In this document: positions 25,095 through 30,848 of the stretch, in pieces
How positions within the stretch are numbered: position 1 is the stretch's first letter
Layout of the letters: each line of letters begins with the position of its first letter
Assembly: GCA_902559355.1 (NCBI GenBank)
Contig: CACEHM010000001.1
Location: 1-64,000 of the forward strand
DNA: 64,000 bases
Direction of reading: 5' to 3'
Origin: an uncultured Gammaproteobacteria bacterium
Lineage (GTDB): Bacteria > Pseudomonadota > Gammaproteobacteria > GCA-002705445 > GCA-002716945
Notes under the pieces: model-generated
The model's input: only the letters and a program-made list of their open reading frames with translations
Told to the model about the DNA's origin: nothing
The model's database searches: none
Position numbers and translations under genes: made by a program

Positions 25095-25544
25095 TTATTT
25101 TTCCCCTGATGAACCAAAACCTTTCTCACCTCTTTTGGAAGTCCTAAACTCTTCGACAACCTCTAGCTTAGGATGTTCAACTTTTATAAATATCATTTGT
25201 GCAATTCTATCTAAAGGCTCAATTATGTAATTCTCTTTACTTCTATTCCAACAAGATATCATGAGTTCACCTTGATAATCTGAATCTATAAGACCAACTA
25301 AGTTACCTAAGACTATTCCTTTTTTATGGCCTAGACCAGACCGCGGTAGCAGTGTTGCGGCATAATCTTTATCTTCAATAAAAATAGATAACCCTGTTGG
25401 TATTAAAATTGTTTCCTCAGAGTGCAGTTTCATCTTTTCATTTATAGCCGCACGGAGGTCCAAGCCCGCCGAACCCTCTGTTGCGTAATCTGGCAATTCT
25501 TTAATAATATTATTGACAATCTTTACTTGAACAATATCAAGCAT
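25095..25544 (-). CDS. dut: Deoxyuridine triphosphate nucleotidohydrolase (dUTPase)
   Basis: 149 aa trimeric dUTPase. Motifs 1-5 are present: [51 protein letters not shown], and C-terminal [10 protein letters not shown] that closes the active site. It produces dUMP and keeps uracil out of DNA. It follows coaBC with an 8-base overlap, the coaBC-dut pair being conserved across Proteobacteria. Confidence 0.97.
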
Positions 25545-26754
25545 TTTTAATCTTCAACAGATTTTTTTTGTATATAGATACTATTTTATGAATGATAATC
25601 TTTGCCAATTCTTTTTTTGAATTACGAGGTATCGTAGTTGTCTCTGATTCATTTATGATAACTATTTGATTATAATCAGATTCAAAGCCCAATCCTTTTT
25701 GGTGATTTGCCTCATTAGCTATTATCATATCAATTTTTTTACTAACAAGCTTTGCTTTTGCATTTTCTTCAATATTTTTCGTTTCTGCAGAAAATCCAAC
25801 AGCAAACACATTCTTATTTTTTAATTTTGCTGTTTTTAAGATATCTTCTCCACGCACAAGTTTTATATTAAGATCACCATCAGAACTTTTATGTTTTTCA
25901 ACTGAGGTATCAGAAGGCTTGTAGTCTGATATAGCAGCTGCAGAAATAAAAATATCACAATCAGATACACTATCTAAGACTTCGTCCAGCATTTCTGAAG
26001 ATGTCTCAACAGCTTTAGTTGGTATTGCTTCTGGTAATGCAAGTTTCACAGGCCCGGTGATTAATCTAACATCACCACCTAAGTCTCTAGCATATTCTGC
26101 AATAGCATAACCCATTTTTCCTGAACTGTAGTTACTGATGAACCGAACTGGATCTATTGGTTCTCTTGTTGGACCTGCAGTGATTAATATTTTGATACCA
26201 TCTAAGATACCTTTACCCATTGCTTTACTTAAGGTTTCGATAATAAGATCTGGAGATGACATTCTGCCATAACCAACATCCCCGCATGCATGATTGCCAT
26301 AGTCTGGTCCAATTATCACAAATTTATCTACGGATATATTTTTTAAGTTATCTTGCACGATAGTGTTATTCCACATATCGGGATTCATTGCAGGAGCTAT
26401 AAAAATTTTTCTTTTAAACGCAAGACATGTCGTAGATAAGAGATCATCACCGAGACCTTTTGTAATCTTATTTAGTGAGTTTGCAGTGCATGGTGCAACA
26501 AGAATAATATCTGCCCATTTTGCAACTTCTAGATGAAGGAATGATTCTTCTGTTTCAGACTCATCTACCAATACTTTATTATTTGATATTGATTCTAAAG
26601 TTCTTTCAGTAATAAATGATGTTGAGGCTCTAGTCATTATAACTTTTACATTAGCACCATTATTTTTTAAACTACTAACAAGCTGAGCTGCCTTATACGC
26701 AGCGATACTGCCAGTAATCCCAACTAATATATTTTTATTATTTAGATTTTTCAC
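25537..26754 (-). CDS. coaBC: Bifunctional phosphopantothenoylcysteine decarboxylase/synthetase
   Basis: 405 aa. N-terminal CoaC (about 1-175) is a flavin-binding decarboxylase: [11 protein letters not shown], active-site H74 in [17 protein letters not shown], and C157 in [12 protein letters not shown]-terminal CoaB (about 186-400) is the ligase: [29 protein letters not shown] with the nucleotide-binding loop. Together they make 4'-phosphopantetheine for coenzyme A. Its start overlaps bioF by 17 bases. Confidence 0.97.
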
Positions 26755-27907
26755 AATGTATATTCTCTAGTGTATCAAGAAGTATATCAATATCTTTCTT
26801 CGTATGGTCTGAGGTTAAGGTAACTCTTAATTTATCATGTTTTCTGGGAACAGTCGGGTATCTTATGGCTTGAACCATTATTCCTTCTTTTATAAGCTTA
26901 TCTCTAATGCTGAGTGTTGAATGAGGATCGCCTATCAGATATGTTTTTATTGGACTTTCTGTAAAATTAAATGCCATGTCCTTCTTAAGACTTTGCTTAT
27001 TAAAATATGATATGTTGCTATGAAGCTTATTGTATCTTGTTTTGTTTATTGCAAGAATTTTTAAACTTTTCCTAGTAGCGTCAATAATACATCTTGGAAG
27101 CGCAGTTGAGTATATATATGGACGGCCTTTTTGTACAACCATATCAATAAGGTCTTTATTCCCACAGATAAATGCTCCTAGCGTTCCAACAGCTTTGCCA
27201 AAAGTTCCCATGTATGCATCAATATTTGAGATTTTAATATTGAAAGATGAACATGAGTTTTCTATAGAATTATTTTTTGCTTTGCACTTCGCTATACCAA
27301 ATCCATGTGCATCATCAACAAATAAAAAAGATTTATAATTCTTTTTTAACTTATAGTGTTCTTTAATATTTGTTGCGTCACCTGACATGCTGAATACAGA
27401 TTCGCTAAAAATAATATCTTGCTTTCCATTTCGCAAATGTTTTTCTAAATGAGTATTATCAAGATGTTTATATCGATTAATTTTTATTTTATTTATTTTA
27501 GAGGATTCAATTATCGAGTTATGAGACTGTCTATCTTGAACGACATTCATTTCCTGATCAAAAATATTCAAAAGACATAGGTTTGCCATATATCCACTGT
27601 TAACCACTAGACAAGATTCTACATTTAAATATTCTGCAATTTCTTTTTCAAGATAATGATGTGATTCACTATAACCTGAAATAAGAGGAGAGGATCCAGA
27701 GCCTATTCCATGAGTATTAGCTGATTTCTTTAATTCAGTTATTATAATTCGATTCTTTGACATTCCAAGATAGTCATTGCTAAGGAAGGATGTCACTATT
27801 TTATTGCCTAAATTTACTCTAGTACTCTTCTCAACATTTATAACAGACCTTGTTCTTAAGTAGCCTAGGGAATTTAATTTTTTTATTTGATTTTTGAAAG
27901 ACGTCAA
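26738..27907 (-). CDS. bioF: 8-amino-7-oxononanoate synthase
   Basis: 389 aa, PLP fold-I alpha-oxoamine synthase. BioF condenses pimeloyl-ACP/CoA with alanine, the first dedicated biotin step. FLSNDYLGMS near the N-terminus, GSGSSPLISGYSESHHYLE for substrate binding, FVDDAHGFGI with the PLP Asp and His, and K238 in MGTFGKAVGTLGAF as PLP lysine. It lies 2 bases after bioB. bioD is 31 kb away and bioA, bioC and bioH are not seen in this window. Confidence 0.95.
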   Translation of the reverse strand: MTSFKNQIKKLNSLGYLRTRSVINVEKSTRVNLGNKIVTSFLSNDYLGMSKNRIIITELKKSANTHGIGSGSSPLISGYSESHHYLEKEIAEYLNVESCLVVNSGYMANLCLLNIFDQEMNVVQDRQSHNSIIESSKINKIKINRYKHLDNTHLEKHLRNGKQDIIFSESVFSMSGDATNIKEHYKLKKNYKSFLFVDDAHGFGIAKCKAKNNSIENSCSSFNIKISNIDAYMGTFGKAVGTLGAFICGNKDLIDMVVQKGRPYIYSTALPRCIIDATRKSLKILAINKTRYNKLHSNISYFNKQSLKKDMAFNFTESPIKTYLIGDPHSTLSIRDKLIKEGIMVQAIRYPTVPRKHDKLRVTLTSDHTKKDIDILLDTLENIHCEKSK

Positions 27908-27909
27908 GA

Positions 27910-28854
27910 TTATAGAGTTTTAATGCTAAGTTTATCCATCAGAACTTTGTCATGATTAATAGAGGAATTTTTTGTTGTAAGTAGCTCATCACCATAAAAT
28001 ATGGAATTTGCCCCAGCAAAGAAACATAATGCTTGCATCTCATCATTCATACTATCTCTTCCTGCAGATAATCTCACAAAAGTCTTTGGCATAGTAATTC
28101 TTGAAATAGCTATAACTCTTATGAAATCGAAGTTGTCAACATTTTCATTTTCTGAGTATGGCGTCCCATCAATCTTTACTAGTTTGTTCATCGGAACTGA
28201 CTCTGGTTGTTCTTCCATATTACAAAGCACTTCAATAAGTTTTAGTCGGTCTATATTTTCTTCGCCAAGACCTAATATGCCACCAGTGCATACTTTTATA
28301 CCTGCATCTCTGACATAACTTAATGTATTGAGTCTATCTTGATAAGTTCTTGTGGATACAACTTTGCTGTAATACTCTTCCGAACTATCTAAATTATGAT
28401 TATAATAATCCAATCCACATTCTTTGAGAGAATCTGCTTGCTCTTTTTTTAACATACCTAGTGTTAAGCAGGTCTCTAGGTTAAGATTCTTTACAGCCTT
28501 GACCATATCTTTAATCTTTTCTAGGTTACTATCGTTTAGATTTCTCCATGCAGCACCCATACAAAACCTAGATGCACCAGAGTCTTTTGCAGCTTTCGCC
28601 TGATCAATGACATCTTCAACAGAAAGCAGTTTTTCAATTTCTACATCAGTATTGTATTTGATACTTTGTGAACAATATTTACAATCTTCAGGGCAGCCAC
28701 CAGTCTTGATAGACATTAATGTCGAGACTTGAATTTTATTAGGATCATGATGCTCTCTATGAATAGAATGAGCTTTAAAAATAAGATCATTAAAAGGTAG
28801 ACGATATAGATTTTCTAAATCATCAAGTTTCCATTTTTTAGTATTTTTATTCAT
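27910..28854 (-). CDS. bioB: Biotin synthase
   Basis: 314 aa radical-SAM enzyme that inserts sulfur into dethiobiotin. The CxxxCxxC motif is C54, C58, C61 in GGCPEDCKYCSQS. The ligands of the sacrificial 2Fe-2S cluster follow the usual pattern (ASRFCMGAAWR, ETCLTLGML, YYNHNLD) with Arg in VRLSAGR near residue 260. Stop and start overlap ubiA by 8 bases. Cytoplasmic homodimer in the family. Confidence 0.97.
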   Translation of the reverse strand: MNKNTKKWKLDDLENLYRLPFNDLIFKAHSIHREHHDPNKIQVSTLMSIKTGGCPEDCKYCSQSIKYNTDVEIEKLLSVEDVIDQAKAAKDSGASRFCMGAAWRNLNDSNLEKIKDMVKAVKNLNLETCLTLGMLKKEQADSLKECGLDYYNHNLDSSEEYYSKVVSTRTYQDRLNTLSYVRDAGIKVCTGGILGLGEENIDRLKLIEVLCNMEEQPESVPMNKLVKIDGTPYSENENVDNFDFIRVIAISRITMPKTFVRLSAGRDSMNDEMQALCFFAGANSIFYGDELLTTKNSSINHDKVLMDKLSIKTL

Positions 28855-29704
28855 AAAGGTAGCTTAATAGTAGTCCAAAAAAGATTATTAATCCAAAGTA
28901 ATTATTATTTTCAAAAGCTGATATACATTGATATGGTTTTCGACTAGATACTAAAATTTTTTGATAGATGCATATTAGTGTAGCTAAAAATAATGCTACA
29001 TAGAAAATTAAATTCAAATTGTTTATCAAGCCGACAATTATTAATAAAGTTATAGTTAATATTTGTAGCCAATAAGGTGCATGAATATCGTTATTTCCAA
29101 ACAAAATTGCTGACGATTTATTTCCTATTTTTATATCATCCTGCTTATCTGCTATCGCATAGTAAGTATCATAAGATATCGCCCATGAAATTGTGGCCAG
29201 ATAAAGCAGTATGCATGAAGTATCAACTTCTCCAATTTGGACTATGTAAACCATTGGTATGCTTGATCCAAAAGCTACGCCTAGAATTAACTGAGGAATT
29301 TTAATCACTCTTTTTGAGATGGGGTAAATAACAAGTAGACAGAATGAAATTAAGGCATAGATAAGAATATCAGCGCCAATCATTAGCAGAAGTAAGATAC
29401 ATAATGATATAAGAGCTATAAAAATAAGCGTAGCCTCATTTGAGCTAACTTTGCCAGAGACTAACATTCTATCTTTAGTTCTTTCTACTTTAGAATCAAT
29501 ATCTCTATCAAAGTAATCATTAATGACACAACCAGCGGACCGTGTGAGCACAGCGCCTATCATAAATAGTAATAAGTAAAATATATTTGGTTGTCCATTC
29601 GTAGATACCCAAAAAGCCCAAAGCATAGGCCACATAAGTAGATAAATGCCTATAGGCTTGTTCAATCGCATTAATAGAAAATAGTTATTCATTCGATCAA
29701 ACAT
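28847..29704 (-). CDS. ubiA: 4-hydroxybenzoate octaprenyltransferase
   Basis: 285 aa integral membrane prenyltransferase, about eight or nine helices. UbiA attaches the polyprenyl tail to 4-hydroxybenzoate made by UbiC. The first Asp-rich motif VINDYFDRDIDSKVERTKDR (about 61-80) and the second YDTYYAIADKQDDIKIGNKSSAI hold the Mg-diphosphate-binding aspartates. The N-terminal LNKPIGIYLLMWPMLWAFW is typical. It follows the fae-like gene by 3 bases rather than ubiC. Confidence 0.96.
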   Translation of the reverse strand: MFDRMNNYFLLMRLNKPIGIYLLMWPMLWAFWVSTNGQPNIFYLLLFMIGAVLTRSAGCVINDYFDRDIDSKVERTKDRMLVSGKVSSNEATLIFIALISLCILLLLMIGADILIYALISFCLLVIYPISKRVIKIPQLILGVAFGSSIPMVYIVQIGEVDTSCILLYLATISWAISYDTYYAIADKQDDIKIGNKSSAILFGNNDIHAPYWLQILTITLLIIVGLINNLNLIFYVALFLATLICIYQKILVSSRKPYQCISAFENNNYFGLIIFFGLLLSYLYE

Positions 29705-29707
29705 TAT

Positions 29708-30256
29708 TTATATTTTACCATCTAGGCCCATTTGATAATATTTATGAATAAGATTATCTTGATTTTCTAATAACCAATCTATCGACGGTTCGTTATTCAT
29801 AGCTTTTTTAATAGCTTGATGTGTCGCTTTTCTATGAATATCAAAAAGAATTTTATGATCTAAATTATCATCTTTACTTACACTCGGATTAAGCCAGACC
29901 GATACAATAATTCCAAGATCATTTGCTTTATTTTTGTCTATAGTGCCGTCTCTTACAGAATCTAAAACTCCATTTGCTATAGCGCCTTGAACCGTACCCA
30001 TTAGAATATTAGTATATCTAGTATTATCAACTGAAACTTTACTGACCATAAGCGTTGCAGGTTTAACCATAATATCTGTATTCATAATTGCTAAGACTTT
30101 CGAATGTCCTTTGGCTTGGTCACCTAATAGATTTGCAAAGGCAGTACCGAAAGGCCCGTCAAGCTCACCTATAATTACTTCAGGCTCAGCAGCTGTGCCG
30201 GCAGGACCACCAGCGACTAGTGATTCACCAACACGCATTGTCATTTTTTCACTCAT
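29708..30256 (-). CDS. Formaldehyde-activating enzyme (Fae) homologue, catalytic His not conserved
   Basis: 182 aa. Fae catalyses condensation of formaldehyde with tetrahydromethanopterin. Family features: VGESLVAGG near residue 9, VIIG (27-30), GPFGTAFANLL (34-44), KVLAIMNTDIMVKPATLMVSKVSV with the conserved KP, a Gln (Q90) in the GxxQGA region, and ATHQAIKKAM in the C-terminal helix. By my alignment the general acid/base His of canonical Fae (its residue 17, in AHIDLIIG) corresponds to Glu 24 (AEPEVIIG), and two extra residues precede it. So this is a Fae paralogue, probably not a normal Fae. No mtdB, mch or fhc genes are nearby. It has a strong ribosome binding site (AGGAG, 5 bases from ATG) and heads the run to ubiA and biotin genes. 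Confidence 0.85.
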   Translation of the reverse strand: MSEKMTMRVGESLVAGGPAGTAAEPEVIIGELDGPFGTAFANLLGDQAKGHSKVLAIMNTDIMVKPATLMVSKVSVDNTRYTNILMGTVQGAIANGVLDSVRDGTIDKNKANDLGIIVSVWLNPSVSKDDNLDHKILFDIHRKATHQAIKKAMNNEPSIDWLLENQDNLIHKYYQMGLDGKI

Positions 30257-30320: not shown

Positions 30321-30848
30321 ATGATTAGAAAATTTAAAGATTTTACCCCGAGCATAGGAAAGCGAGTATTTGTTGATGAGCAAGCTACAGTTATTGGTGA
30401 TGTTTCTCTTGGAGATGATGTAAGTGTTTGGCCTCAGTCAGTGATTAGGGGAGATATAAACCCAATTACTATAGGAGAAAGAACCAATATTCAAGATGGC
30501 AGTATTGTACATGTCACTCATAAAAGTCAATATTCAGAGGGTTATCAATGCCATATTGGGGCAGATGTAACAATAGGACATGGATGTATAATACACGCCT
30601 GCACTATAGAGGACATGGCCCTAGTCGGAATGGGCAGTGTTATTCTTGATGGTACGATAATATCAAAAAAAGTTATAATAGGAGCAAAGTCACTTGTACC
30701 CTCTGGCAAGACATTGGAGTCGGGTTATTTATATATGGGTTCACCATGTAAGAAGATTAGACCTTTGAATGATGCTGAGCTCGAGTTTCTAAAATATTCA
30801 GCGACTCATTATGTGAATACTAAAGATGATTTCCTAAGTGAGCCTTAA
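30321..30848 (+). CDS. Gamma-class carbonic anhydrase family protein (YrdA-like)
   Basis: 175 aa left-handed beta-helix protein of the gamma carbonic anhydrase/PaaY group. Hexapeptide repeats run from about residue 20 to 140 (for example VIGDVSLGDDVSVWP). The three Zn-ligand histidines expected in the family are visible in GSIVHVTH, IGHGCIIHAC. Real carbonic anhydrase activity varies in this family, so only the fold and metal site are safe. Single gene, converging on aroE with a 15-base overlap. Confidence 0.87.
   Translation: MIRKFKDFTPSIGKRVFVDEQATVIGDVSLGDDVSVWPQSVIRGDINPITIGERTNIQDGSIVHVTHKSQYSEGYQCHIGADVTIGHGCIIHACTIEDMALVGMGSVILDGTIISKKVIIGAKSLVPSGKTLESGYLYMGSPCKKIRPLNDAELEFLKYSATHYVNTKDDFLSEP

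Follow-up and report, generated by a model that had tools for sequence, protein, structure and literature searches.

An EPE-type Fae-like paralogue beside canonical Fae in an H4MPT-using marine gammaproteobacterium

The Fae-like gene and its locus

The protein encoded at 29708-30256 of the window (the whole 64-kb stretch of DNA that was analysed) is a true Fae homologue with the Fae fold (Table 1). The ORF matched the Pfam profile Fae (PF08714) at 197.9 bits (cut-off, 27) over profile positions 1-158 of 159. Against the NCBIfam equivalog TIGR03126, it scored 131 bits, narrowly over the cut-off of 118, and the canonical Fae of the same genome scored 234 bits. An AlphaFold2 model built from 58 clade members had a mean pLDDT of 87 and a pTM of 0.86. 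The best five PDB matches of this model in Foldseek were all 1Y60/1Y5Y, with fold-level scores of TM 0.81-0.93 and rmsd 1.6-2.3. A frameshift or annotation artefact was ruled out, since the ORF is intact, a 100% identical protein is present in an independent single-cell genome (AG-461-I20), and dN/dS is about 0.15.

The close-spaced gene order fae-ubiA-bioB-bioF-coaBC-dut (25095-30256) was kept in 15 loci of the window lineage, with the fae-like gene at the head of this cofactor operon. The fae-like gene and ubiA are probably co-transcribed, although they are not known to be linked in function. No C1 gene was seen in the ubiA-bioB-bioF-coaBC operon of this lineage. The original prediction also stated that the window is free of H4MPT-pathway genes. 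This was borne out, as no H4MPT-cluster gene was matched within the 64 kb besides the Fae homologue and a trpE/pabB-type relative; yet an H4MPT gene set with a canonical Fae was found on another contig.

Table 1. Features of the Fae-like gene, its neighbours and the canonical fae1 of the same genome
Feature	Position	Strand	Basis or remark
Fae-like paralogue (EPE type), 182 aa, 549 bp, ATG at 30256	29708..30256	-	ORF, profile match, fold match
Glu24-Pro25-Glu26 (EPE) codons, in place of canonical His17-Ile18-Asp19	30179..30187	-	alignment
His51 codon (canonical position 44), invariant in both clades without His17	30104..30106	-	alignment
Lys73 codon (canonical Lys66), kept pterin-contact residue	30038..30040	-	alignment; contact role presumed
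Gln90 codon (canonical Gln83), kept pterin-contact residue	29987..29989	-	alignment; contact role presumed
ubiA (4-hydroxybenzoate octaprenyltransferase), 3 bp downstream of the fae-like gene, same direction	28847..29704	-	order kept in 15 loci
Gamma carbonic anhydrase homologue, divergent neighbour, order kept	30321..30848	+	
Canonical fae1, motif SHID	contig C3:67297-67776		in H4MPT gene set

Residues at the catalytic position and clades of the Fae family

We take His17 to be the catalytic residue of Fae, and Asp19, Leu48, Lys66, Thr68, and Gln83 to be the further functional or pterin-contact positions of its structure. In the phmmer and MAFFT alignments, Glu24 of the window protein aligned with the His of the AHID motif in M. 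extorquens Fae, and Glu26 with its Asp. The claim that Glu24 replaces the catalytic His while the Fae core is kept was thereby confirmed. L55, K73, and Q90 (L48, K66, and Q83) are kept, and S75 replaces T68. The window protein thus has Glu where canonical Fae has His17 and the Asp19 of HxD, and it carries the Glu-Pro-Glu at 17-19, the His44, and the five-residue insertion of the EPE type. E24, P25, E26, H51, K73, and Q90 were invariant in 58 aligned EPE clade members, and Lys66 and Gln83 were conserved at 95% or more across the three main clades. A further part of the original prediction, that two residues are inserted before the motif, holds against M. extorquens Fae only. Most canonical relatives have letters in these two columns, and Fae1 of the same genome is one residue longer there. 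The true length differences of the EPE clade lie elsewhere, in five residues at 128-132 and in a C-terminal tail.

We classed 200 deduplicated Fae-family sequences by residues 17 and 19, one row being misaligned there. The classes were Glu-Glu (EPE, 106), Met-Glu (MPE, 43), His-Asp (HID, 45), and His-Asn (HxN, 5). All 106 distinct EPE relatives, which come from alpha-, beta-, and gammaproteobacterial methylotrophs, read Glu-Pro-Glu, and the 43 sequences of the sister clade read Met-Pro-Glu. The window gene is therefore not a lone degenerate copy. Relatives at 70-98% identity were found in Methylobacterium, Methylocella, Ancylobacter, Methylophaga, Methylococcaceae, Bathymodiolus symbionts, and marine gammaproteobacterial genomes. 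In the maximum-likelihood tree of Fae paralogues, a check proposed with the original prediction, each class formed one side of a single branch (support: EPE, 94/98; HID, 99/96; MPE, 100/94; HxN, 98/97). The window protein fell in the EPE clade, apart from the HID clade, and EPE and MPE grouped together (100/99) in this tree, which was rooted by midpoint only. The small fourth clade, with the motif HIN, comprises sequences from a Caballeronia plasmid and other genomes of the class; it has His44 and Trp114 and is intermediate in residues between the canonical and the EPE/MPE types.

It had been considered that H51 might itself occupy the catalytic place. In the sequence alignment, H51 aligned with Phe44 of canonical Fae and not with His17. 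Position 44 was His in 149 of 149 sequences without His17; among the canonical HID sequences, it was Phe in 37/45 and His in 2/45. Since the HxN clade carries both histidines, His44 was probably already present when His17 was lost. However, EPE and MPE are uniform at 11 columns whose residue is rare in HID, position 44 among them. All 11 differences fall on a single old branch, so that the pairing of His44 with the loss of His17 may be a coincidence. These data give a residue rule that is new here: every well-aligned sequence has His17 or His44, and never neither.

We also examined how the EPE protein is distributed and constrained. It was present in 23 of 369 gammaproteobacterial genomes (62-100% identity), and 22 of these 23 also hold a lower-identity Fae; the single exception is a genome that is 75% complete. 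The same held for 9/9 EPE genomes in a phylum-wide draw. The lower-identity partners were mostly HID among those whose motif was read. In a family read as methanotrophs, dozens of genomes had EPE-level matches and dozens had MPE-level matches. The median dN/dS was 0.145 for EPE (352 pairs) and 0.187 for HID (145 pairs); the pairs are non-independent, and the values speak for constraint and not for a difference. Purifying selection acts on the EPE gene as strongly as on canonical Fae. Glu at position 17 is a clade-wide, constrained state, which is also new here.

The neighbours of the gene differ among lineages. EPE fae adjoins fhcC-fhcD in five Methylococcales loci, and it lies directly after mgsABC-gmaS of the N-methylglutamate pathway on plasmid pLVM1 of Methylobacterium sp. 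DM1. A bacterial-type globin gene (PF01152) adjoins it in two distant lineages, Methylophaga (L081:5428-5829) and Methylobacterium DM1 (L113:6634-7041). A radical SAM protein gene is its divergent neighbour in 13 methanotroph loci. On a plasmid of Azospirillum oryzae, 37 bp separate an MPE-type fae from the methyl-accepting chemotaxis protein gene that precedes it (L114:3233-5519).

Canonical Fae in the same genome and published paralogues

The genome of the window (1.04 Mb, 93% complete) encodes exactly two Fae proteins, which share about 32% identity. The search for a canonical Fae and H4MPT genes that accompanied the original prediction as a further check recovered fae1, fhc, and mch. The gene set around fae1 comprises fhcC, fhcD, fhcA, fhcB, mptG, mch, a gene for an MptN-like ligase, and a citG-like protein read as orf5. 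FhcD, FhcA, Mch, and Fae1 scored over the curated cut-offs, and FhcB, MptG, and the MptN-like ligase were best matches below cut-off. MtdB was assigned by eye from its sequence, NCBIfam giving weak dehydrogenase matches. In this genome, no PQQ methanol dehydrogenase or gmaS over cut-off and no sarcosine oxidase beta match was found, and a methanethiol-oxidase-like SBP56 protein is encoded about 3 kb from fhcC. Methanethiol is therefore a plausible source of formaldehyde in this organism. Beside the H4MPT genes (C3:44000-58000; L232:3156-12960) lies a gene for a membrane protein resembling alkane-1-monooxygenase (phmmer E 5e-29 to 8sbb). The same C3 stretch encodes a 2Fe-2S/FAD reductase, a 500-aa FadL-type porin-like protein (by eye), the SBP56 protein, and SCO1-like and MauG-like proteins; together they resemble a path by which a volatile methyl-sulfur compound would yield formaldehyde.

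Compared with canonical Fae of M. extorquens AM1 (1Y5Y, 1Y60), the window protein is alike in fold, size, Lys66, Gln83, Leu48, and the KP-T motif. It has Glu17, Glu19, His44, and Trp114 where that Fae has His17, Asp19, Phe44, and Phe114, it adds the insertion and tail described above, and the identity is about 30%. MPE-type Fae (the M. aquaticum 22A megaplasmid, Azospirillum, Caballeronia) shares Glu19, His44, Trp114, and the five-residue insertion with the window protein but has Met at 17, at roughly 33-47% identity.

Fae-like paralogues have been described before. A tree of 78 Fae sequences published in 2024 had five groups, of which groups 2-4 had no known function, and sensing, regulation, or tetrahydrofolate-linked transfer was suggested for the Fae-like groups (PMC11748545). 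Sensing or regulation had also been proposed in PMC3728764. In M. alcaliphilum, deletion of fae3 caused no growth defect, and fae1 could not be deleted despite fae3; when this fae3 was expressed in an M. extorquens fae1 mutant, it neither relieved methanol sensitivity nor restored growth (PMC11748545; this fae3 is presumably of the EPE type). In M. universalis, fae3 was upregulated 11.7-fold on methylamine and proposed as a C1 shuttle, and its deletion was also without growth defect (PMC5023235). An M. aquaticum 22A mutant deleted for fae2 grew more slowly on methanol (PMC7356819). The sole Fae that we found on the megaplasmid of this strain is of the MPE type and was taken as the published fae2. 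One Methylophilaceae genome holds a full H4MPT gene set and fae2 with no true Fae (PMC4109929), and another fae homologue, mmol_1253, of unassigned clade, lies in a Methylotenera chemotaxis cluster (PMC3728764). As EPE and MPE are both common in the methanotroph family searched, the published fae3 of M. alcaliphilum and M. universalis probably lack His17, whether they are EPE or MPE. The window protein belongs to this known Fae-like (fae2/fae3) kind, an extra Fae homologue beside canonical Fae in methylotrophs (groups 2-4 of PMC11748545). At 70-80% identity, its clade extends to named records of Methylobacterium, Methylocella, Methylophaga, and methanotrophs, the published labels being matched by kind and not by sequence. 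A published mention of the change of His17 to Glu or Met was not found in the literature searched, though one may exist.

Function of the EPE-type protein

The window gene is an EPE-type Fae-like paralogue beside canonical Fae in an H4MPT-using marine gammaproteobacterium. We give a probability of about 0.5 to the reading that it encodes an accessory, non-canonical C1-pterin protein with altered chemistry, working beside canonical Fae. As Lys66 and Gln83 are kept, a reduced pterin with a C1 unit would still be bound at the canonical site. The acid/base group would be supplied by Glu17, and possibly by His44. Less surely, such an enzyme may move or release C1 units between carriers, for example between methylene-tetrahydrofolate or a formaldehyde adduct and H4MPT, instead of repeating the formaldehyde-H4MPT condensation of canonical Fae. 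The site does not appear to be decaying, since decay would bring drift, and the pocket residues are invariant at a dN/dS of 0.145. The co-occurrence with a lower-identity Fae in 22/23 and 9/9 genomes ties the EPE protein to H4MPT users. The fhcC-fhcD and mgsABC-gmaS neighbours seen in other lineages, the induction of M. universalis fae3 on methylamine with its proposed shuttle role (PMC5023235), and the failure of M. alcaliphilum fae3 to complement fae1 (PMC11748545) also speak for this reading. Against it stand the deletions, without growth defect in two species, of fae3 genes that may be EPE or MPE, and the window-lineage operon without a C1 gene. As a full account, a role confined to methylamine use through the N-methylglutamate pathway was rejected, because 56 of the 57 genomes drawn, the whole family of this organism included, have no gmaS over cut-off.

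The original prediction was that function is altered, possibly to that of a sensor. Altered function is likely, as the change from His to Glu is shared throughout an old clade that evolves under purifying selection and the Fae3 of M. alcaliphilum, whose clade we infer, gave no rescue (PMC11748545). A sensor or regulator that would bind formaldehyde or methylene-H4MPT, leave it unconverted, and report the cell's C1 state is a possible but less likely function, and one already in print. It would agree with the loss of His17 at a kept pterin site, with the published proposals (PMC3728764, PMC11748545), and with the MPE gene just downstream of a chemotaxis gene in A. oryzae and the chemotaxis cluster of mmol_1253. 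However, the window protein lacks a signalling domain, and neither its locus nor the conserved EPE neighbourhoods inspected showed a linked gene for a regulator or for chemotaxis. Charged residues so strongly conserved at the catalytic place point to chemistry, and the gene is kept in 1-Mb genomes, where regulators would tend to be lost. No observation here favours sensing over altered C1 chemistry, and in our judgement altered catalysis is preferred.

In Fae, the active sites are placed at the interfaces of neighbouring subunits. A non-catalytic subunit that mixes into the canonical Fae pentamer and tunes its activity would share the fold and would explain why the EPE protein nearly always co-occurs with a canonical-type Fae. 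The identity of about 32% to Fae1 of the same genome makes this improbable, and a pure scaffold needs no invariance at the catalytic position. It is similarly improbable that the protein is an ordinary active Fae, in which Glu17 or a relocated His44 does the work of His17 in condensing formaldehyde with H4MPT. His44 in all sequences without His17, against the usual Phe of canonical Fae, and the HxN clade with both histidines are in line with this, as is the Methylophilaceae genome that has fae2 and lacks a true Fae (PMC4109929). On the other hand, M. alcaliphilum fae3 did not complement fae1, and fae1 could not be dispensed with despite fae3 (PMC11748545; clade inferred); His44 is also one of the 11 clade-separating columns. 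Somewhat less doubtful, but still speculative, is a relocation of the catalytic His to a different reaction. An ancestor with both His17 and His44 would have lost His17, giving Glu17 and Met17 clades that use His44 and Glu19 in an uncharacterised C1-pterin reaction of the H4MPT-linked C1 metabolism of many methylotrophs.

Fae-like paralogues are widespread in methylotrophs and are sometimes strongly regulated. Automated annotation still calls them formaldehyde-activating enzyme, and the window protein itself passes the TIGR03126 cut-off. The His17/His44 rule tells canonical and non-canonical Fae apart, both in genomes and where fae serves as the marker of an environmental survey. The residue pattern also narrows the question of function to one that a binding assay with two or three point mutants could address.
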